A program made the position numbers and the translations under genes. Under the pieces are notes generated by a model. It was not told where the DNA came from. It was given only the letters and a program-made list of their open reading frames with translations, and searched no databases. From positions 1-9,787 of the forward strand of contig JALOPK010000099.1 in NCBI GenBank assembly GCA_025453925.1: 9,787 nucleotides of DNA. The letters are read 5' to 3'. Positions 228 to 9,787 of this stretch are shown here, piece by piece (within the stretch, counting starts at the first letter, position 1; each line of letters starts with the position of its first letter). Source of the stretch: Candidatus Eiseniibacteriota bacterium (lineage in GTDB: Bacteria > JAFGKV01).

Positions 228-1661
228 GTGAACGTGCTCTTCCTCAATCCGCCATATCTCCCAAGGTTTTCGCGATCCCAGCGAAGTCCCGCAGTCACGC
301 GGAGCGGCACTCTCTACTATCCCATGTGGCTGGCATATGCCGCTGCCGCGACCGAGCAGCGGGGCCACCGGATCAATCTCGTGGATGCTCCCGCGGCCGG
401 GGTCAGCGTGCCGGATCTCCTCCGAGAACTCGCGGAACCCCAACTCGTGGTGCTTGAGACCTCGACGCCGAGCATCTCTGCCGATCTGGAGACGGCGACT
501 CACCTCGCCCAGCACTGGCGATCGACCCGCGTGTGTCTTGTCGGACCTCATGTCAGCGCGCTCCCCGACAGTGCCCTGCAGGCCTCCGGTGCCCATGCCG
601 TGGCTCGTGGCGAGTACGACCACACGGTCGCCGACCTGGCCGACGCCCTGGCGGGCGACATCGATCTGCGCCACGTGCGGGGCCTGAGCTGGAAATGCGA
701 CGAGTGCGTAATCCACAATCCGCCTCGGCCCTTGATTGAGAACCTTGACCTCATCCCCCCGGTATCGCGGGTGTACGCACGATTCCTTGACTTCAGAGAT
801 TACTTTAACCCAAACGCTCTCTATCCAATGGTGACAATAGTTTCCAGCAGGGGATGCCCCTACGGATGCTCCTTCTGCGTCTATCCGCACACCATGACGG
901 GGCTTCGGCAACGGTTCCGCGATGTCCGCCTCGTGGCGGACGAAATGGAGGAAATCGGCGCCAGGTTTCCTGGAGTCCGGGCGGTATTCTTCGAGGATGA
1001 CACTCTCACCGCCGGACGCCCCCACGTTCGTGCTCTCTGTGAGGAGATCATCAACCGTGGCATCGCATTGAGCTGGACGGCCAATGCCCGGGCCGACGTG
1101 GATCTCGATACTCTCCGGCTGATGAAGCGCGCGCGCGCCCGATGCGTCTGCGTCGGCTTCGAGAGCGGCTCCGCGGAGGTTCTCCAGCGGATGCAGAAAC
1201 GCCTTGAGGTCGACCGTGCCCGCCGGTTCATGGCGGACGCCCGTTCGGCGAACCTCCTGGTGCATGGCTGCTTCGTCTTGGGAATGCCGGGTGAGACCCG
1301 GGAGACGATGGAAGAGAGCCTGCGGCTGGCGCTGGACCTCGATCCGGATACTGCGCAGTTCTACCCGTTCATGGCATACCCGGGCAGCCCGGCATACGAG
1401 GAGGTGAAGAAGGCCGGTCTTCTCACCACGGAGCGCTTTTCGGACTGGCTGTGCCCGCGGGGTCACCACACGGCCGTTGCGGGAACGGGCACGCTCACAC
1501 CCGGCGACGTCGTCGCGTTTTGCGCCCGCGCCCGTCGGCGGTTCTACCTTCGTCCCCGGTACATGCTGCGCACTCTCGTGCGCGCTGCCTCTGACCGGGG
1601 CGAGCGGGTGCGCATCGTTCGGGCCACGCGAACCTTCTGGAAACACCTCATCCGCCGATGA
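228..1661 (+). CDS. B12-binding-type radical SAM protein, HpnJ-like
   Basis: A 477-residue radical SAM protein. Residues about 1-150 form the Rossmann-like region typical of B12-binding radical SAM enzymes (MNVLFLNPP start, LVDAP, VCLVGPHVSALP), but the DxHxxG cobalamin-ligand motif is not visible. The radical SAM core follows at about 200-410. It has the [4Fe-4S] cluster motif C210-PYG-C214-SF-C217, then FFEDDT, VGFESGS and VLGMPGET, all typical of this class. The C-terminus is basic and Arg-rich. Order and length (about 470 residues) resemble HpnJ, the radical SAM protein of hopanoid side-chain maturation, including the YYPMWLA segment near the N-terminus. No other hopanoid gene is visible, so the substrate is open; a lipid or lipid-linked sugar would fit the neighbours. 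The GTG start at 228 is preceded by GGGG at 217-220 and lies 3 nt after the previous stop. The end overlaps the next gene by ATGA. Confidence 0.88.
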   Translation: MNVLFLNPPYLPRFSRSQRSPAVTRSGTLYYPMWLAYAAAATEQRGHRINLVDAPAAGVSVPDLLRELAEPQLVVLETSTPSISADLETATHLAQHWRSTRVCLVGPHVSALPDSALQASGAHAVARGEYDHTVADLADALAGDIDLRHVRGLSWKCDECVIHNPPRPLIENLDLIPPVSRVYARFLDFRDYFNPNALYPMVTIVSSRGCPYGCSFCVYPHTMTGLRQRFRDVRLVADEMEEIGARFPGVRAVFFEDDTLTAGRPHVRALCEEIINRGIALSWTANARADVDLDTLRLMKRARARCVCVGFESGSAEVLQRMQKRLEVDRARRFMADARSANLLVHGCFVLGMPGETRETMEESLRLALDLDPDTAQFYPFMAYPGSPAYEEVKKAGLLTTERFSDWLCPRGHHTAVAGTGTLTPGDVVAFCARARRRFYLRPRYMLRTLVRAASDRGERVRIVRATRTFWKHLIRR

Positions 1662-3937
1662 TCAGCGTCGTCATCCCCGCCTTCAATGCTTCGGCCACTA
1701 TCGAGGCAACCCTCCGGGCCCTGCAAGGCCAGACCCTGCCTCGGGATTCATTCGAAGTGATCGTGGTGGATGACGGCTCAACCGACTCGACCACGGCGAT
1801 CGCTGGACGGTTCGCGGACCGTGTCGTGAGCCAGGAAAGGGCCGGGCCCGCTGCGGCGCGGAACCATGGAGCGCGACTCGCCCGCGGTGACATTCTGGTG
1901 TTTACCGACAGCGATTGCGAGGCCGATCCGGAATGGCTTGCCAGGCTCACGACGCCCATGAGCGACCCGGAGGTCGTCGCCGTGAAGGGTGCCTACCGGA
2001 CGCGTCAGAGACGCGTGGCCGCCCGATTCGCGCAGGTGGAATTCGAGGAGCGCTACCGCCGGCTCCGAGGCTATCACCGCATTGACTTCGTAGACTCCTA
2101 TTCTGCGGCCATCCGCGCGGAGTCATTCCGGTCGGTCGGCGGTTTCGACCTTCGGTTCCCCAAAGCGAACAACGAAGATGTCGACCTCTCGTACAAACTT
2201 GCCGCGCGGGGAGCGGGGATGGTGTTCGCACCCGACGCCATCGTCTACCATCGGCACCCGAACTCGGTCCGCAGATACCTGCGCACCAAGTTCTTGCGGG
2301 CATACTGGCGGGCGATGGTCTACCGGCGCCATCCGGCCAAGCTGCTCGCGGACAGCTACACACCGCAATTGTTGAAGATACAGGCTGCCCTGGCCCCGCT
2401 GACGTGCCTTCTCGGCGCCGGCGCGGCCGCGGGCATGATCCCCTGGCTGATCCCGGCGGCGGCAGGCGCCGTGTTTGCTATCACAACCTTGCCTCTCATG
2501 GCGGTCACCGCGCACTCGGACCGGCCTCTCGTTCCACTTGTGCTTCCCCTGGCTATCGGCCGGGCGCTGGCTCTCGGCGCAGGGGGAGCCGCCGGGGCCC
2601 TGGCCCACCGGGAGAGAGATCGACTAATCCCGGCGCTTCTGGTCGCGGCGGACAGCCTCGCCGTGCTGGCGGCCTTCGTGCTTGCATTCCTCGCCAGGAC
2701 CCGGCTCATGGCCGACGCGCTCACCCCGTTCGCCCATGGAATCGACGTCTATCTGCGCCCACTGCCGGTCGTGCTCTGCCTCTGGCTGGCAGCGTTTGCC
2801 TACTTGAATCTCTATGCTGTCCGCGTTCACACGACGCCGTTCGTGGAGTTTATCCGCGTGGCCAGGGGGTCCGTGTTCTCTCTGCTCGTGATCATGTCCC
2901 TGTCTTTCCTCGCGAAGTTCGACTACAGCCGAGTCCTCGTGCTCCTGTACTTCATTCTGGTCGTTCCGCTCACGGTGTCCCTGCGGTCCGCCGTTCGATT
3001 GCTGCAGCATCGCCTGCTGCTGCACGGCTACCGCACCTCCCGGTGCCTGATAGTCGGCACAGGCGAGACAGCACGCGATCTCGTTGACCGGATGCTCCGG
3101 TACCCGTCGCTCGGATACACCCCGGTCGGCATCGTGAGTGAGCTTCCGCCGGACACGGTCCCGCACGAGGAAGTGCCATGGGTCGGCAGGCCGGAGAACA
3201 TCTCCGGTCTCGCGCTGACCCTCGGCGTCGATGAGGTCTTCATCTCGGATCCTTCCCTCGCGCCCGTGGAAACCATGGCCTTGGCGCTGGCCTGCGATGC
3301 CGCGGGCACGTCCTGCAAGGTGGTGTCGCGTCCGACCCCGCTGGACGCGACGAGCAGTGAGGTCACCTCGCTCACGAATCTCTCGATCCTCGATCTCAGC
3401 AGACCCCGGTTCGGACCGGTGCAGGAGGCCATTAAGACCACGTTCGATGGACTCGTGGCCTCCATTGTGCTCCTGGCCTTCGCACCTCTGGCGATTCTGT
3501 ACGGTGTCTCGCTGGCAATCCGGAGCATTCGTCCCCTACTGATCACTGAGGAACGTGTCGGCAAGGGCGGACACCACTTCACGACCACAAGACTTACCAT
3601 ACCGGCATCGGCATGTTTCATTGATCGGTGTGTTCGCCGTATCGGCCTGGACCGGGTGCCAAGGCTTATGGCCGTGCTGCGGGGGGACATGAGCCTCGTC
3701 GGCCCACGCGGGGAGTCGCCGGACAAGATAGCCGCAGCTCCGCACTGGGAGCGTGTGCTTCTGGAGGTTCGGCCTGGGCTCACGGGCCTGTGGCTGGTGG
3801 GGAGAACAGGTGATGTGGGCGGAGGGTCAGATGTGGAGCATGATTTCTTCTACCTCAGGAATCGATCGTTGCTGCTGGATGTGGTTATCATCCTGAGAAG
3901 CATACCGGCACTTTGGAAGACGAGGACTACTGCGTGA
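1658..3937 (+). CDS. Fusion of GT2 glycosyltransferase and WbaP/WcaJ-type polyprenyl glycosylphosphotransferase
   Basis: A 759-residue membrane protein with two enzyme-type halves. Residues 1 to about 240 are a GT-A fold family 2 glycosyltransferase: VVIPAFNA at the start, D38-D39 in VVDDGSTD, the DXD metal site D84-S-D86 and the acceptor-side E173-D174. Hydrophobic segments follow at about 245-275 and 288-312. The second half begins near 320 with a WbaP-like membrane region (about 323-345, then three more segments). Next come a CoA_binding_3/Rossmann segment from C463 (CLIVGTGETA), K593, and the sugar-transferase core with RVGKGGHHF, GLD665-R666-VPRL, VLRGDMSLVGPRG and RPGLTG. Such phosphotransferases load a sugar phosphate onto undecaprenyl phosphate, and GT2 enzymes add sugars, so one chain could do two early steps of a surface glycan or glycolipid. 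The core is diverged: canonical LDE reads LDR and the DPRVT stretch is missing, so phosphotransferase activity is uncertain. ATG 1658 overlaps the previous stop; no clear ribosome binding site, suggesting translational coupling. Confidence 0.87.
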   Translation: MISVVIPAFNASATIEATLRALQGQTLPRDSFEVIVVDDGSTDSTTAIAGRFADRVVSQERAGPAAARNHGARLARGDILVFTDSDCEADPEWLARLTTPMSDPEVVAVKGAYRTRQRRVAARFAQVEFEERYRRLRGYHRIDFVDSYSAAIRAESFRSVGGFDLRFPKANNEDVDLSYKLAARGAGMVFAPDAIVYHRHPNSVRRYLRTKFLRAYWRAMVYRRHPAKLLADSYTPQLLKIQAALAPLTCLLGAGAAAGMIPWLIPAAAGAVFAITTLPLMAVTAHSDRPLVPLVLPLAIGRALALGAGGAAGALAHRERDRLIPALLVAADSLAVLAAFVLAFLARTRLMADALTPFAHGIDVYLRPLPVVLCLWLAAFAYLNLYAVRVHTTPFVEFIRVARGSVFSLLVIMSLSFLAKFDYSRVLVLLYFILVVPLTVSLRSAVRLLQHRLLLHGYRTSRCLIVGTGETARDLVDRMLRYPSLGYTPVGIVSELPPDTVPHEEVPWVGRPENISGLALTLGVDEVFISDPSLAPVETMALALACDAAGTSCKVVSRPTPLDATSSEVTSLTNLSILDLSRPRFGPVQEAIKTTFDGLVASIVLLAFAPLAILYGVSLAIRSIRPLLITEERVGKGGHHFTTTRLTIPASACFIDRCVRRIGLDRVPRLMAVLRGDMSLVGPRGESPDKIAAAPHWERVLLEVRPGLTGLWLVGRTGDVGGGSDVEHDFFYLRNRSLLLDVVIILRSIPALWKTRTTA
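3922..3926 (+). promoter_or_regulatory. Shine-Dalgarno-like GAGGA for the start at 3934
   Basis: GAGGA ends 7 nt before GTG 3934. It supports that GTG, which overlaps the upstream TGA as GTGA, over the in-frame TTG at 3913, which lies upstream of this site. Spacing is normal for a bacterial ribosome binding site. Confidence 0.6.
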
Positions 3938-5583
3938 GCACAACATCATACAGAAGCGGCACTCTCCATCACGCTTTGGCACAGCTTGGTAGAACAAGCC
4001 CCCGGCGCAACGCGCTCCTCTGGGACGATTCGGTGTTCACATGGGAGGACCTGCTTCTGGAGAGCCTCGCCATGGCCGAGGCGTTACTGGATGCCGGCGT
4101 GACGCCCGGCGACACCATTGCGGCGTGGGGCACGTCGGCGCCGTTTCATGTCGTGAGCCTGTGCGCTTCGGGCATGGTGGAGGCGGTGCAGGTGCCGTTG
4201 AATCCACGCTGGCCCCAGTCCTGGCTCCGGGAAGCGGCTTTGGGGACCTCCGTGCTCATCTCCGACGGCAGGCTACCGGTGACGCGATGGCTGCGGCGCC
4301 CCAAGGTGCTGTCTTGGAGCTCGCGAGAGCGAGCCCATCCCCGGGTATCGGAGTCGCGAGTCTTCCCTGGTGAAGAGAACAACCCCGTGACGGTGGATTT
4401 CACGAGAGGCAGAGACGGTGCTTCTCCGCGCGGAGCACTGCTTACCCATGGCATGGTGCTTGGCAATGCGGCTGCCACCGCCCGGGTTCTTGACATCGGG
4501 TCGGATGACGTCGTCGCGTACCTCTTTCCGTCGTGGCAGCATCCCCATGAGTTGGTCGGCAAGGGCCTCGCCGCCGGCTGTACCTCCATCGGTGTCGACT
4601 TCCCCTATCCGCGCACGATCCTCTCGCTAATCGGTCGCCACTCCCCCACCTGGATCATCGGTTCCCCTCGCGTCATGGAGGGGCTGCTTCCCTTCGGAGA
4701 CCGGTTGACGGAAGCGCTGCAGGGAGTGCGCGGGATTGTCCTGGTGGGAGATTACGCCAGACCGCGGCTTATCTCCCGCCTCGCGGCTGCAAAGCTGAGA
4801 TTGTTCAATGCCTGGGGATCCGCGGAGACTGCCGGCATCGCACTCCTCGGCGAGATGACGACCGACACGGTCGACGGGTGTGGCGTCCCCTGCCCGGGCT
4901 ATGAGGCATCGGTCCGCTCCTCCGGTGGCGCCAAGGAAGGCCAGCTTCTCATCAGGGGGCCGGCGGTGAGCCTTTCGTACCTCGACCGCCGGTCAGTGCT
5001 GGGCGCCGAAGGATGGTTCGACACGGGCGATCTGGTGCGGCTCATGCCCGACGGCACGCTACGGCTGGCGGGCCGCCCCGGCGAAGCAGTGCTTGGGGAG
5101 GGACGCCGCATCTCGCTGGCAAGGTTGGAGACCACCATTGCCCGAATGCCGGGCGTAGCCGATGTCGCGGCCCTCCAAATTCCCCCGGGGAGCGATTCTG
5201 TGGCCGTGTACATTGAACCGGAAGGCACGACGATCTCTATTTCGCAGATCATCCGCAAGCTGCGGCAGTTCTTTGGGCCCGTCGTGCCGGAGATCTGTGT
5301 TGTCAGTTCGTTGCCCCGATCCGCTGACGGCAGGATCGACAAAGCCCGGCTCGTGGCCGGGGAGATTCCCCCGATGAGCCTCGAGGCCGTGGACAAGGCC
5401 ATGCTGGAACTCCTCAATCGCCGGGCTCTCCTCTCCGCCGAGGCTCCGCGGGGCGATGAGAGTCCTCTGTCGGCTGATGAGACGGTGCTCCAGCGTATGG
5501 TCGGCAGCAACGCGGGCCCGCTGTTTGATGATTCCGTCCGCGAGATCTTCCGATGTATCCTCGATCACAGCAGGCGGACATGA
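3934..5583 (+). CDS. ANL-superfamily AMP-dependent ligase-like protein with C-terminal degenerate chorismate mutase domain
   Basis: A 549-residue protein from GTG 3934. Residues 1 to about 475 have the acyl-CoA synthetase/adenylation fold order: an N-terminal subdomain, an A3-type loop at 156-167 (FTRGRDGASPRG), an A5-type WGSAE with E298, the A7 motif TGD with D366, LAGRPGE, and a C-terminal subdomain ending in DGRIDK. ANL enzymes activate a carboxylate as acyl-AMP and usually pass it to CoA or a carrier. Two sites deviate: the Ser/Thr-rich A3 loop has R158, R160, D161 and R166, and the A10 catalytic Lys position is R467. The last 69 residues (481-549) look like an AroQ chorismate mutase: EAVDKAMLELLNRR, then NAGPLFDDSVREIFRCIL. 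Only R496/R497 remain of its usual catalytic residues, so it is probably inactive and may regulate or dock. The stop overlaps the DAHP synthase start (ATGA), the enzyme AroQ domains are normally joined to. The substrate is unknown; an aromatic acid is a guess. Confidence 0.82.
   Translation: MSTTSYRSGTLHHALAQLGRTSPRRNALLWDDSVFTWEDLLLESLAMAEALLDAGVTPGDTIAAWGTSAPFHVVSLCASGMVEAVQVPLNPRWPQSWLREAALGTSVLISDGRLPVTRWLRRPKVLSWSSRERAHPRVSESRVFPGEENNPVTVDFTRGRDGASPRGALLTHGMVLGNAAATARVLDIGSDDVVAYLFPSWQHPHELVGKGLAAGCTSIGVDFPYPRTILSLIGRHSPTWIIGSPRVMEGLLPFGDRLTEALQGVRGIVLVGDYARPRLISRLAAAKLRLFNAWGSAETAGIALLGEMTTDTVDGCGVPCPGYEASVRSSGGAKEGQLLIRGPAVSLSYLDRRSVLGAEGWFDTGDLVRLMPDGTLRLAGRPGEAVLGEGRRISLARLETTIARMPGVADVAALQIPPGSDSVAVYIEPEGTTISISQIIRKLRQFFGPVVPEICVVSSLPRSADGRIDKARLVAGEIPPMSLEAVDKAMLELLNRRALLSAEAPRGDESPLSADETVLQRMVGSNAGPLFDDSVREIFRCILDHSRRT
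5374..5580 (+). other. Degenerate AroQ-type chorismate mutase domain (inside the ligase gene)
   Basis: Residues 481-549 of the ligase follow the three-helix AroQ pattern. Helix 1 has LEAVDKAMLELLNRR, like the ID..D..LL.L...R signature. The last part, SNAGPLFDDSVREIF, resembles the NxGPxxxxxxxxIF segment of the chorismate mutase domain fused in front of Bacillus-type DAHP synthases. Mapped by eye, the first active-site Arg is Pro, the helix 1 Lys is missing, the Arg-Glu pair of helix 2 is Ala-Asp, and the terminal Gln is cut off by the stop. R496/R497 covers the one retained Arg. Catalysis is unlikely. Binding of chorismate or prephenate, or docking to the DAHP synthase, is possible. Confidence 0.65.
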
Positions 5584-6377
5584 CCCGCCTCTGCCCTGTT
5601 CTCACCGCCCTGAAGGCATCGGTCGGCATACCCGATGACGAGCCGCTCATCATTGCAGGCCCGTGCGCGGTTGAGAGTGAGTCGATGTTCGATGAAACCG
5701 TGCAGATGCTGGTCGAGCACGGAATACGCTTCGTGAGGGCGGGAATCTTCAAACCGCGTACGTCCCCTTTCACGTTTCAGGGCATGGGCGAGGATGCCCT
5801 GGAGGTCATCGGGAGGGTCGCTGCCAAGTACGCGGTGGCGCTGGTGAGCGAGGTCATGGAGTCCGAGCAGATCCCGATCCTGTCCACCGTTGCCTCCGTA
5901 CTCCAGGTGGGAACCCGCAACATGGACAACTACGCCCTGCTGAAGCGCCTCGGATGCCAGCCGCTACCGGTGCTCTTGAAGCGCGGCTTCATGGCTGACA
6001 GCAAAGAGTTCTTCCTCGCCGCGGAGTACGTGAGGCGGGAGGGAAACGAGCGAGTGGTGCTGTGCGAACGGGGAATCCGCACATTCGAGAGCGCGACCAG
6101 AAACACCCTGGATCTCAATGTCGTTCCAATCGCCAGGTTGGCGACGGACCTCCCCATCATCGTCGACCCGTCCCACGGCACGGGCCGGTCGGACATTGTG
6201 ATTCCCATGGCCCGGGCCGCAATTGCCGCCGGAGCGGACGGGCTCATGGTGGAAGTCCACCCGAATCCACCGAAAGCTCTTTCCGACGGCCTGCAGTCAC
6301 TTGATTTCGAGCGTTTCGCCGCCATGCTCCAGGAGGTGCGTGCGATTTACGCATTTGTGGGAGAAGGCGGCCGATGA
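5580..6377 (+). CDS. aroF: 3-deoxy-7-phosphoheptulonate (DAHP) synthase, catalytic domain only
   Basis: A 265-residue class I DAHP synthase of the compact Bacillus/Thermotoga/Pyrococcus-like group. It condenses phosphoenolpyruvate with erythrose 4-phosphate, the first step of the shikimate pathway, in the cytosol. The barrel motifs are complete: IIAGPCAVES with metal ligand C29, the KPRTSP substrate loop (which separates it from KDO8P synthase), RNMDNYALLK, LLKRG, VVLCERGIRTFE, DPSHGTGRSD with H199, VEVHPNP with E225 and LSDGLQS with D236. There is no ferredoxin-like or chorismate mutase regulatory domain in this chain; a degenerate chorismate mutase sits at the end of the preceding protein. 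ATG 5580 is chosen because it overlaps the upstream stop as ATGA, like other junctions here, and has AGG at 5572-5574; an in-frame ATG at 5553 would add nine residues with no homology. As the last gene of this block it may supply aromatic precursors for the cluster rather than housekeeping. Confidence 0.93.
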   Translation: MTRLCPVLTALKASVGIPDDEPLIIAGPCAVESESMFDETVQMLVEHGIRFVRAGIFKPRTSPFTFQGMGEDALEVIGRVAAKYAVALVSEVMESEQIPILSTVASVLQVGTRNMDNYALLKRLGCQPLPVLLKRGFMADSKEFFLAAEYVRREGNERVVLCERGIRTFESATRNTLDLNVVPIARLATDLPIIVDPSHGTGRSDIVIPMARAAIAAGADGLMVEVHPNPPKALSDGLQSLDFERFAAMLQEVRAIYAFVGEGGR

Positions 6378-6486: not shown

Positions 6487-6494
6487 TGTGAGTG

Positions 6495-8363
6495 ATGAGT
6501 GAGAGAGTCCTTGTCGTCGACGATGATCCCGTGATGCGGGAACTGCTCCGCGCGGTTTTCGCCCAGGCCGGGATGACCGTTCTGGAGGCGGAGGATGGTC
6601 AGGAAGGTCTTGAGGAGATCCGCGGGGAGCGGCCTGACCTTGTTCTGAGCGACGTGATGATGCCGATAATGGATGGATTCGAACTCGTGCGCCGGGTACG
6701 TTCCGACCCGCTTCTTGCGAGTACGCCCCTGATCATCCTCAGCGCCAAAGGCGAGGAAGAGGACCGAATCAAGGGCCTTGAACTCGGCGCCAACGACTAT
6801 ATGACCAAGCCTTTCAGCGGCAAGGAGCTCGTTGCCCGTGTCCGCGGCACTATCCGCTATCGGGACATGGTGCGCCTACAGCGAGCACCTCTCTCGGATG
6901 GGCCCTTTGCTGCGAAGGGCTTGGAGCACCTGGCGCAACTCACTTTTCAGACCTTCGTCCCCGGCACGGGCAACCGTTCCGCCTACGAGGCGTGCCTGGC
7001 GGCGGCGGAGAACCCGGGGAAACGCTTCAATCCGCTGTTCCTTTACGGTGGCCCGGGGATGGGCAAGACCCACATGATGTGCGCCCTGGCAAACGAGGTC
7101 TTCCGCCGAAACAACGCCGTCAAGCTGCTGTACCTCACGTCGGAGGTGTTCAGCAGCCAGATCATCGATGCCTATCGGGACCGACAGGTAACGCAACTGC
7201 GGGATCAATACCTTCAGGCCGACGTGATGCTGGTCGACGATATCCAGTTCCTGGCTATCTCGCCTAGTATGCAGACCGTCGCTGCGGACCTTCTCGCCGT
7301 TATGTACGACAAGGGGAAACAGATCGTCATTTCGAGTGATCGCCGCCCCGAGGAACTGCAGGCCCTGACCACCGAGATCAGCACGGCGTTTGCCCTTGGC
7401 CTGGTAGTACGGATCGACCAGCCCGATGCGACGCTGCGCACCAGCATCCTCCGTGCAACGGCCCAGCGCAACAACTGGGCGGTCGATGTGGCCATGTTGG
7501 ACTACCTTGCGGCGAACCTGGAGTCGGATCTGCGGACACTGGGCGGCCTGGCCAAGCGTCTTGTGGCGCTGAAGACTCTGTCTGGGACGGCGATATCCAG
7601 GGAGATCGTTGATGATCTGATCGCCGAGGTCACGGGACCGCCTGGAACAGACATGCCGCCCGAGTCCCCGGCCGGGAAGGCATCACCCGTGCCGGCGGCA
7701 TCTTCCCCCGACGCGGCGGCACCACCGGCACCCGGGGCCGGCGAACCGCCCGCCCACCCGGCACTTGCCTTCCAGGATCCCCTGGCCGCTGAATTCACCC
7801 CGCTCGCCTCCCTCACCCGAGTTCTGGGTGGCTTCCGCGACGCCGCCATGGCTCTGGCCTGCCTCAAGGCACGCCCGGTGATCGTTCTCGGCACGTCTCC
7901 CACCCTCGCCCTCGACACGGTAGACATGCTTGCTGAGTCCCGCAAACGATCGGTGACGCTTCCTGAGGGTGATGAGTGGGCCTACGTGGTGCATGTTCAA
8001 CGGGAGGCTCCCTCCTGGGTGCTGGTCGCTCTCCCGGGCTGGCGGGAAGGCACCGAGGTTACCCGGATGCTGCCGGCCGACCGAAATCCAGCATTTCTCA
8101 TCGTTCTGGACAGCATGAGCCCCAAGGTGATGGAGGCCCGCCAGCTCATCGATGGCCTCCCCGCCACGTGCGGGATGGCCGTGGTGGTGCTGGTGCCCAC
8201 CCTGACCGATGACTCCTCCGAGCGAACGGTTGAGACCCTGTCCCGAAGCATGCGCAGGCTCTTCAAGGTTAAGGCGTGCGCGCCATTGATCGTCAGCCCG
8301 CGGCTGACCACGGCCGCGACCAGGAACTGGCTGCACATGGCCAGCGAGCCGCCCCCGACGTGA
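6495..8363 (+). CDS. Response regulator with DnaA-type AAA+ ATPase output and unknown C-terminal domain
   Basis: A 622-residue cytosolic fusion. Residues 1 to about 120 are a complete receiver domain: acidic pair D9-D10, phosphoacceptor D53 (LSDVMMP), S83 and K105 (MTKPF). Residues about 145-380 match DnaA domain III: LTFQTFVPGTGNR, NPLFLYGG, Walker A GGPGMGKT (185-192, K191), an initiator-specific region around SEVFSSQIIDAYRD, Walker B D248-D249 followed by IQFL, sensor 1 VISSDRRPEEL, and sensor 2 R347 (LRTLGGLAKRL). Box VII has lost both usual arginines: ETERLxSRF-type residues read TEISTAF, with E294 and A298. Domain IV, which binds DnaA boxes, is absent. A Pro/Ala linker (about 381-421) leads to a C-terminal alpha/beta region (about 430-622; strands PVIVLG, WVLVALPG, FLIVLD, MAVVVLVP) that I do not recognise. 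DnaA-family proteins control replication initiation, as Hda does without domain IV, or act as ATPase scaffolds. Here phosphorylation probably gates the ATPase. It is coupled to the downstream kinase by GTGA. Confidence 0.9.
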   Translation: MSERVLVVDDDPVMRELLRAVFAQAGMTVLEAEDGQEGLEEIRGERPDLVLSDVMMPIMDGFELVRRVRSDPLLASTPLIILSAKGEEEDRIKGLELGANDYMTKPFSGKELVARVRGTIRYRDMVRLQRAPLSDGPFAAKGLEHLAQLTFQTFVPGTGNRSAYEACLAAAENPGKRFNPLFLYGGPGMGKTHMMCALANEVFRRNNAVKLLYLTSEVFSSQIIDAYRDRQVTQLRDQYLQADVMLVDDIQFLAISPSMQTVAADLLAVMYDKGKQIVISSDRRPEELQALTTEISTAFALGLVVRIDQPDATLRTSILRATAQRNNWAVDVAMLDYLAANLESDLRTLGGLAKRLVALKTLSGTAISREIVDDLIAEVTGPPGTDMPPESPAGKASPVPAASSPDAAAPPAPGAGEPPAHPALAFQDPLAAEFTPLASLTRVLGGFRDAAMALACLKARPVIVLGTSPTLALDTVDMLAESRKRSVTLPEGDEWAYVVHVQREAPSWVLVALPGWREGTEVTRMLPADRNPAFLIVLDSMSPKVMEARQLIDGLPATCGMAVVVLVPTLTDDSSERTVETLSRSMRRLFKVKACAPLIVSPRLTTAATRNWLHMASEPPPT

Positions 8364-9502
8364 ACGCGTCATTCATGCACCCCGCCTCCTCTGCGGGGGC
8401 AGAGGCGCGGCTGGTCGGCGAGAATGCGTTTTTCGTCCCGTTCTCGGAAGCGGGACGCACTCGCCTCTTGGGGGCGGTGACATTGACCGCACACCGCGCC
8501 GGCGACGTCCTGTTCGAGGAGGATGATGCCCCGGATGCGGTCTATCTCGCGATCTCAGGGTCTGTGGCACTCGCCAAACGTACCCGAGAAGGGCACGTGG
8601 AGACTCTGGCTCGGGTTCAGCCCGGCGAATACTTTGGGGAGATGGGAGTGATCGACAATCTCGGCCGGAGTGCGACCGCCAGCGCCGAGACCGATGCCGT
8701 CGTCGCGCGGGTACCGGGGCCGCTGCTTATGGACGTACTCCGGAGCGAGCCGAGCACGGCCAGTCTCCATTTCGTCCATCGCGTCTCGGAGTATCTCCGA
8801 ACGACCAACGCCCGGTTCATCGCGCAGGTGCTCCAGAAGGAGCGGATGCAGGTCGTCGGGGAAATGGCCAGTTCCATCATCCACGACTTCAAGAATCCGA
8901 TGACCAGCATACAGCTCGGCGCCGAGATGATCGATCAGAACACCGATGATCCGGCGACGCGGCGCTACTGCGAACTCATCATCGGGCAGCTTCGTCGAAT
9001 GCTGGCCATGGCGGAGGAATTGCTGGCCTACTCCCGTGGCTCGTCCGAGCTGCAGCGGGAACGCGTCACGGTTCGGCAGTTTCTTCGAGAGTTCGAAGTC
9101 TACAACGAGGATTTCCTGCGGCAGAGTAAGGTCGGGCTCACGTTGGAGCCCGTCGATACGGTGATCGAGATCGATCGTACTCGGTTCATGCGCGTGTTCC
9201 AGAATCTGCTCAGCAACGCGGTTGAAGCGTGCGGTGACCGCGGCGGACACGTCACGATCCGCGCGGCCGTGGAGGATTCGGCCCGGTTGCGCTTTGATGT
9301 GGCCGATACCGGTCCGGGCATACCTGAGGCTATTCGTAGTAGGGTGTTCGATCCCTTCGTGACCCATGGCAAACGCAGGGGGACCGGGCTAGGCATGGCG
9401 ATTGCCCGTACTATCGTCGAGGCCCACGCCGGCTCAATTGTCTTCGAGACCGAGAGCGGCAAGGGTACCACCTTCACGATACGCATTCCACTCGGCAGCT
9501 AG
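8360..9502 (+). CDS. Soluble histidine kinase with N-terminal cyclic-nucleotide-binding-type domain
   Basis: A 380-residue kinase from GTG 8360, which overlaps the regulator stop as GTGA. An in-frame ATG at 8375 is an alternative; neither start has a strong ribosome binding site. Residues about 18-140 form a CRP-like beta-roll: AGDVLFEEDDAPDAVYLAISG, then a phosphate-binding cassette GE94MGVIDNLGR103SATA that keeps the Glu and Arg used to hold cyclic nucleotides. There is no DNA-binding helix-turn-helix after it; a helix (RTTNARFIAQVLQKERMQVV) leads into the dimerisation/phosphoacceptor domain with H175 in the H-box IIHDFKNPMTSIQ. The ATPase domain has the N-box FQNLLSNAVEAC, G1 DTGPGIP, F-box FDPFVT and G2 GTGLGMAI, all intact. 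No signal peptide or membrane segment is seen, so it senses an internal signal, perhaps cAMP or cGMP. The obvious partner is the receiver domain of the preceding gene. The stop codon TAG lies at the boundary of an IS630-type element. Confidence 0.92.
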   Translation: MNASFMHPASSAGAEARLVGENAFFVPFSEAGRTRLLGAVTLTAHRAGDVLFEEDDAPDAVYLAISGSVALAKRTREGHVETLARVQPGEYFGEMGVIDNLGRSATASAETDAVVARVPGPLLMDVLRSEPSTASLHFVHRVSEYLRTTNARFIAQVLQKERMQVVGEMASSIIHDFKNPMTSIQLGAEMIDQNTDDPATRRYCELIIGQLRRMLAMAEELLAYSRGSSELQRERVTVRQFLREFEVYNEDFLRQSKVGLTLEPVDTVIEIDRTRFMRVFQNLLSNAVEACGDRGGHVTIRAAVEDSARLRFDVADTGPGIPEAIRSRVFDPFVTHGKRRGTGLGMAIARTIVEAHAGSIVFETESGKGTTFTIRIPLGS

Positions 9503-9505
9503 TGT

Positions 9506-9530
9506 ATTGTCCGAGAACTTGCTTGACAAT
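9506..9530. repeat. ATTGTC/GACAAT inverted repeat in the IS left end
   Basis: ATTGTC (9506-9511) and GACAAT (9525-9530) are perfect 6-bp reverse complements about 4 nt inside the presumed IS end. The right arm contains TTGACA (9523-9528), a perfect -35 hexamer, but the best -10 at normal spacing (GACCAT, 9545-9550) is poor. The dyad may be a subterminal transposase-binding site or operator, or a weak transposase promoter element. Confidence 0.35.
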
Positions 9531-9556
9531 TGCGCGTGAGTGCTGACCATGTGAGC

Positions 9557-9787
9557 ATGTTTCCACCCGCCACACCGCTCTTGATCGACGACAGTCAACG
9601 GAAGAGGCTCAGCTTCCTCGCCTCGTCCGGGAAGACGCCGCAGGCCATCGCGAGGCGCGCGCGCATTGTTCTTCTTGCTGCCGAAGGCACGTCGAACACT
9701 GCAATCGCTCGCGTGTTGGGAATCAGCCGCCCCACGGTCCTGCTGTGGAGGGCACGGTTCACCCGGTTCGGCGTACGGGGACTGATG
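9557..9787 (+). CDS. IS630-family transposase, N-terminal part (3' partial)
   Basis: Seventy-seven codons from ATG 9557 stay open to the window edge; an in-frame GTG at 9551 is another possible start. The sequence has the typical IS630 N-terminus: TPQAIARRARIVLLAAEG, then a helix-turn-helix (IARVLGISRPTVLLW) that binds the element ends, and RARFTRFGVRGLM, where family members usually continue into a GL.D-type linker. The DDE catalytic domain, and therefore whether the gene is intact, lies outside the window. It is too close to the edge to judge activity. It belongs to the mobile element and not to the two-component operon. Confidence 0.85.
   Translation, partial: MFPPATPLLIDDSQRKRLSFLASSGKTPQAIARRARIVLLAAEGTSNTAIARVLGISRPTVLLWRARFTRFGVRGLM

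Follow-up and report, generated by a model that had tools for sequence, protein, structure and literature searches.

Receiver domains fused to DnaA-type ATPases and predicted pseudo-GTPase domains: a probable non-replicative output of two-component signalling

Results

The window analyzed here, a stretch of 9,787 nucleotides from a Candidatus Eiseniibacteriota genome (contig JALOPK010000099.1), carries on its forward strand an open reading frame (6492..8363) for which ATG 6495 was judged to be the best start codon, yielding a protein of 622 amino acids (6495..8363, + strand) that joins a receiver (REC) domain, a DnaA-type AAA+ module and a predicted pseudo-GTPase domain. The REC domain spans residues 5-117 (6507..6845, + strand; Pfam PF00072, Response_reg, E 9.4e-33), and its structural relatives, as determined by sequence against solved structures, are receivers of the PhoB/PhoP/PleD type. 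Its catalytic set of acidic pair, phospho-acceptor Asp, Ser/Thr and Lys is complete, and the residues named in an earlier note on this DNA (D9, D10, D53, S83, and K105) proved exact in every case, with the codon of the phospho-acceptor D53 at 6651-6653 (+ strand). These catalytic residues are intact in 15 of 18 relatives, with Thr replacing S83 in four of those 15, and degenerate receivers are confined to one group of three proteins (group f).

The receiver is followed by a DnaA domain III AAA+ module at residues 148-380 (6936..7634, + strand), an arrangement proposed in the earlier note and on which Pfam, sequence and fold agree. The Bac_DnaA family (PF00308) matches residues 148-305 with an E-value of 2.9e-48, the nearest solved structures by sequence and fold are those of DnaA domain III (8bv3, 8btg, and 2z4r), and DnaA domain III is likewise the top Foldseek match of the AlphaFold model; a match to IstB_IS21 is also present (E 1.5e-10). 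All four elements of the ATP site that had been read from the sequence were recovered in the motif table, namely Walker A (GGPGMGKTH, 7047-7073), Walker B (VDDIQF, with its DD pair at 7236-7241), sensor 1 (SSDR, with its DR pair at 7338-7343) and sensor 2 (R347, 7533-7535), all on the + strand. The DnaA-box helix-turn-helix domain IV is missing, as previously noted, with no Pfam match to Bac_DnaA_C (PF08299) in the window protein. An NtrC-type AAA+ domain was considered and rejected, since Pfam and fold both point to DnaA domain III, and the protein does not match Sigma54_activat (PF00158) in Pfam at E-values up to 0.01.

Alignment to E. coli DnaA reveals a conserved ATP-binding site and a replaced arginine finger. 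All REC-DnaA proteins preserve, in E. coli DnaA numbering, K178 of the P-loop, R334 of sensor 2 and both Asp residues of Walker B. The position of the arginine finger R285 is occupied by Ala298 in the window protein (7386..7388, + strand), a change absent from the earlier note, and is replaced in most REC-DnaA relatives; each genome has four long-form proteins, of which just one keeps the finger (L011, L098, and L109). In all 12 long forms, Ser occupies the positions of R245, a residue of the single-stranded DNA (ssDNA) H/B motif, and of its neighbor K243, and the V211 position shows conservative changes, being Ile in the window protein and Ile, Leu or Val among the long forms; the roles of R285, V211 and R245 in E. 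coli DnaA follow published work (PMC12122000). The same motif comparison shows that the arginine finger is retained in Hda and is Ala in the window copy, which makes an Hda-like role in stimulating hydrolysis unlikely for this protein. Furthermore, the Hda model (NCBIfam TIGR03420) scores 83.0 bits on the window protein vs. a cut-off of 194.8, and a motif scan across relatives detects no conserved clamp-binding motif, only scattered chance matches.

The AAA+ module is connected through a Pro/Ala linker at residues 381-430 (7635..7784, + strand), predicted to be disordered (pLDDT <50) and fast-evolving (dN/dS ~1), to a third conserved domain at residues ~431-620 (7785..8354, + strand) that the earlier note had also not described. 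Pfam assigns no family to this C-terminal domain, and a sequence search with it returns only weak matches to the GTPase Der (E 0.02), which were later explained by its predicted structure. Modeled alone, the domain reaches a pLDDT of 90.7 and a pTM of 0.89 in AlphaFold and adopts a small-GTPase fold, with EngB 4dhe as the top Foldseek match (E 1e-4, TM 0.54/0.52) and YsxC 1sul aligning with a Z-score of 13.4 over 165 residues (rmsd 3.3). The G1 (GxxxxGK[ST]), G3 (DxxG) and G4 (NKxD) motifs are absent from the window copy, where GTSPTLALDT replaces the P-loop, and from the motif positions in all 12 members. On the basis of the predicted model, the domain is thus a pseudo-GTPase. The full-length AlphaFold model, built on an alignment of 12 relatives, has a pLDDT of 76.9 and a pTM of 0.44, a value at which the relative placement of domains is unreliable. 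Between orthologues from two species of the genus, dN/dS for the window protein is 0.08 in REC, 0.08 in AAA+ and 0.23 in the C-terminal domain, and the protein is therefore under purifying selection; across REC-DnaA members for which the ratio was computable in two species of the genus, it is 0.05-0.09 for REC and AAA+ and 0.10-0.23 for the pseudo-GTPase domain.

Immediately downstream, a gene at 8360..9502 (+ strand) encodes a histidine kinase with cNMP-binding, HisKA and HATPase_c domains (Pfam), a putative partner whose likely GTG start at 8360, as read from the sequence, overlaps the upstream TGA stop by 4 bp (gtga, 8360-8363). Neither this kinase, read as translationally coupled, nor the paralogue family featured in the earlier note. 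The orthologue of the window gene in genome G001 is adjoined by the same kinase. Among the paralogues, group b genes sit in a peptidoglycan-recycling operon, with a kinase that overlaps by 4 bp in G000 and lies close upstream in G001 and G002, and genes of group c adjoin one for a hybrid HK-REC-REC-Hpt protein and, in G000, also one for a REC-HK protein. Kinase adjacency is thereby seen in groups a, b and c; groups d and e have no adjoining kinase. The neighbors of REC-DnaA genes thus vary, encompassing exopolysaccharide and aromatic biosynthesis, peptidoglycan-recycling and signaling genes, and no pilus genes lie beside any of them, including among the neighbors in the window. The remainder of the window encodes a 759-amino acid fusion of a family 2 glycosyltransferase with a polyprenyl glycosylphosphotransferase (1658-3937), an AMP-dependent ligase with a weak C-terminal match to type II chorismate mutase (3931-5583; E 1.7e-4), an adjoining DAHP synthase gene (5553-6377) and, at the contig end, the start of an IS630-type transposase (9530-9787).

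The genome contains nine Bac_DnaA matches. A canonical DnaA with PF08299 accounts for one of them, the ordinary initiator that the earlier note had suggested looking for, so that the window protein is not the sole DnaA of its genome; six carry REC or degenerate REC in front of the DnaA domain, and others have MshEN-type N-termini. In the phylum sample, comprising three genomes of a single family, each genome encodes a canonical DnaA with PF08299, four REC-DnaA-pseudoGTPase paralogues and two shorter REC-DnaA proteins, adding up to 12 full-length intact REC-DnaA-pseudoGTPase members, and in each of the two members of the genus some 14 kb separate the paralogue RECc from dnaA. Outside the phylum, REC-DnaA was found in none of ~970 genomes, in a survey that scored the best 3-6 candidates per genome and in which a degenerate REC might score too close to the DnaA background to stand out. 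For 383 genomes sampled across the remainder of the domain, every top match listed outside the phylum is restricted to the DnaA part, starting at model position 113 or later, and 396 and 195 genomes of two large phyla yielded no REC-DnaA. The absence outside the phylum is hence firm solely for intact REC-DnaA within the sampled genomes. A search of named organisms with the REC-DnaA alignment recovered no closely related full-length protein, most matches covering either REC or DnaA alone.

A maximum-likelihood tree of 53 DnaA domains recovers the REC proteins as one clade (support 99/94) and places this clade, together with four short MshEN-DnaA proteins from the phylum of the window protein, on one side of a branch with support 100/96. 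Canonical DnaA falls apart from the REC and MshEN side, in one group (95/91) that includes two other proteins devoid of domain IV. Pfam detects no MshEN domain in the window protein. MshEN domains serve as c-di-GMP receptors in pilus and secretion ATPases (PMC5013675), and the two 24-residue half-motifs of the domain are kept in most MshEN-DnaA proteins, usually with a 5-residue spacer. As judged from the tree, the AAA+ domains of REC-DnaA and MshEN-DnaA share ancestry.

Eight genomes from four further families likewise encode MshEN-DnaA fusions, and two unrelated phyla have such genes inside type IVa pilus (T4aP) operons. All three genomes of family f25 carry the MshEN-DnaA gene immediately 5' of pilB and pilT, and this placement upstream of pilB-pilT is seen at L158 (G026:C68), L172 (G311:C14) and L173 (G173:C62), in a phylum unrelated to that of the window; pilS, pilR and pilC were also identified after the MshEN-DnaA-pilB-pilT genes in G026. 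In G002, three MshEN-DnaA genes, one of them encoding a giant of 1,993 amino acids, lie between pilD and pilB-pilT-pilC-pilS-pilT-pilR.

Several other unusual DnaA-like proteins were observed. MshEN-DnaA clusters with coiled-coil giants of 983-1993 amino acids are present at L107:4309-15923 (G002), L097:8940-18339 (G001) and L016 (G000), where some giants carry a second DnaA-like domain, and the C-terminal part of an MshEN protein at L107:7245-8555 resembles, by sequence, an AAA+ domain lacking the P-loop. Giants of 2132 and 1752 amino acids at L115:6958-13356 (G014) and L143 (G301), respectively, end in a DnaA AAA+ domain with the arginine finger kept; the former consists mostly of TPR repeats, and its N-terminal Cys/His stretch resembles a primase-type zinc finger. 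Two tandem DnaA AAA+ domains per protein are encoded at L134:1890-3995 and L176:1927-4041 (G107), with no domain IV detected by Pfam in the L134 protein, and the genes at L177:3233-5362 (G118) and L178:4014-6158 (G382), whose products of 709-714 amino acids have a DnaA AAA+ domain but lack domain IV, adjoin a gene for a pilT-family ATPase.

Discussion

The window protein is probably a response regulator that is coupled to a kinase and has, as its output, a DnaA-type ATP switch repurposed for a non-replicative role. The intact receiver, the intact ATP site, the overlapping kinase gene, the constrained paralogues and the ancestry shared with MshEN-DnaA proteins are the basis for this reading, under which REC-DnaA proteins would be neither replication initiators nor Hda and the pseudo-GTPase domain, probably a docking surface, would form part of the output. 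Counting against it, no REC-DnaA gene lies beside pilus genes, and an adjoining kinase is found for some members only. The earlier note had envisaged a receiver-controlled DnaA-type ATPase that could either link signal transduction to replication initiation in an Hda-like manner or act as a repurposed switch ATPase. Receiver control of a DnaA-type ATPase holds and the switch provides the best fit, whereas the replication option is disfavored by the absence of the arginine finger, of the Arg in the H/B motif, of a DnaA-box domain and of a clamp-binding motif, and by the nearest relatives without REC belonging to a family from pilus operons.

In the proposed mechanism, the adjoining cNMP-sensing kinase would phosphorylate D53, and the signal would travel from REC via a long helix (residues 109-130) to alter the ATP-bound conformation or the assembly of the AAA+ module. 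Because the arginine finger is missing from most paralogues, ATP turnover would depend on one supplied by a different subunit, such as the single paralogue per genome that keeps it; alternatively, the protein may stay bound to ATP and act as a scaffold. Docking on a target, for which envelope or pilus machinery is the most plausible candidate, would then fall to the pseudo-GTPase domain. The likeliest history, in a direction that the tree does not fix, involves the recruitment of a DnaA copy to a pilus-linked signaling ATPase, after which REC replaced MshEN, and the REC-DnaA line probably arose through this exchange of inputs. On a wider and more tentative reading, a family of signal-gated DnaA-type ATPases, controlled by c-di-GMP through MshEN or by phosphorylation through REC, might serve the type IV pilus and the envelope, with mixed assemblies of finger-bearing and finger-less subunits read out by the pseudo-GTPase.

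A narrower form of the switch reading, in which REC-DnaA would regulate the type IV pilus by binding PilB, PilM, PilC or MshEN-DnaA and would set extension or retraction on kinase signals, draws on the sister MshEN-DnaA genes within T4aP operons of two unrelated phyla and on the association of MshEN with pilus ATPases (PMC5013675). The location of REC-DnaA genes outside pilus clusters leaves it somewhat doubtful. It is unlikely that the proteins convey kinase signals to oriC as phosphorylation-controlled replication regulators, either acting like Hda or co-assembling with canonical DnaA, for instance as a finger-less filament cap. The AAA+ domain is truly of the DnaA type, a finger-less subunit could accept the arginine finger of DnaA and so cap its filament, and RECc and dnaA lie ~14 kb apart in the two members of the genus; nevertheless, the substitutions at R285, R245 and K243, the lack of domain I, domain IV and a conserved clamp-binding motif, the Hda score far under its cut-off and the position of the closest relatives in a non-initiator family with pilus-operon members all argue against such a role.

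The relationship of DnaA domain III to IstB and DnaC, visible in the IstB_IS21 match, would accommodate a DnaC/IstB-like loader or remodeler working on nucleic acid, yet the ssDNA-contact residues are lost and, except for the IS630 fragment, no helicase or transposase core gene is found nearby, making this alternative highly improbable. An assembly in 502 contigs and the degenerate receivers of group f could be taken to indicate a decaying paralogue or an assembly artifact; against this, the 12 full-length intact members in three genomes and dN/dS values well below 1 render it scarcely credible.

The AAA+ domain of DnaA is usually regarded as restricted to replication, in DnaA and Hda, and response regulators with AAA+ outputs are already known in NtrC. 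In the literature searched, of which coverage was partial, no description was found of REC-DnaA proteins or receiver-bearing DnaA paralogues, nor of MshEN-DnaA fusions or DnaA-type ATPases in pili or pilus operons; the MshEN-DnaA ATPases of T4aP operons are recognized in the present analysis. The DnaA AAA+ domain would here constitute a two-component output with an expanded set of paralogues and with relatives in pilus operons across phyla. If this is true, response regulators gain a new class of output and the DnaA fold a new function, and DnaA-domain matches cannot by themselves denote replication initiators; confirmation of the DnaA-type pilus family would permit a larger claim.

Comparison with known systems places the window protein among several families. 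With DnaA it shares an AAA+ module that Pfam, sequence and fold all identify as domain III, with Walker A, Walker B and both sensors kept, but REC replaces domains I-II, the predicted pseudo-GTPase replaces domain IV, and the arginine finger and ssDNA-contact residues have been lost. Hda is likewise a DnaA-type AAA+ protein without domain IV; unlike the window protein, it keeps the arginine finger, carries a clamp-binding motif and is described by a model whose 194.8-bit cut-off the window protein, at 83 bits, does not approach. Regulators of the NtrC type share the succession of REC and AAA+ ATPase, but the AAA+ module of the window protein is not of the sigma-54 activator type and no helix-turn-helix follows. 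The C-terminal domain has the fold of EngB/YsxC and other small GTPases (Z up to 13.4 at 10% identity), whereas its 12 members lack the P-loop, DxxG and NKxD at the motif positions. The MshEN-DnaA ATPases of T4aP operons, which form the adjoining group in the tree, also combine an N-terminal signal-input domain with a DnaA-type AAA+ module, and differ in having MshEN instead of REC as input, in lacking the pseudo-GTPase domain and in being, in some lineages, pilus-operon genes.
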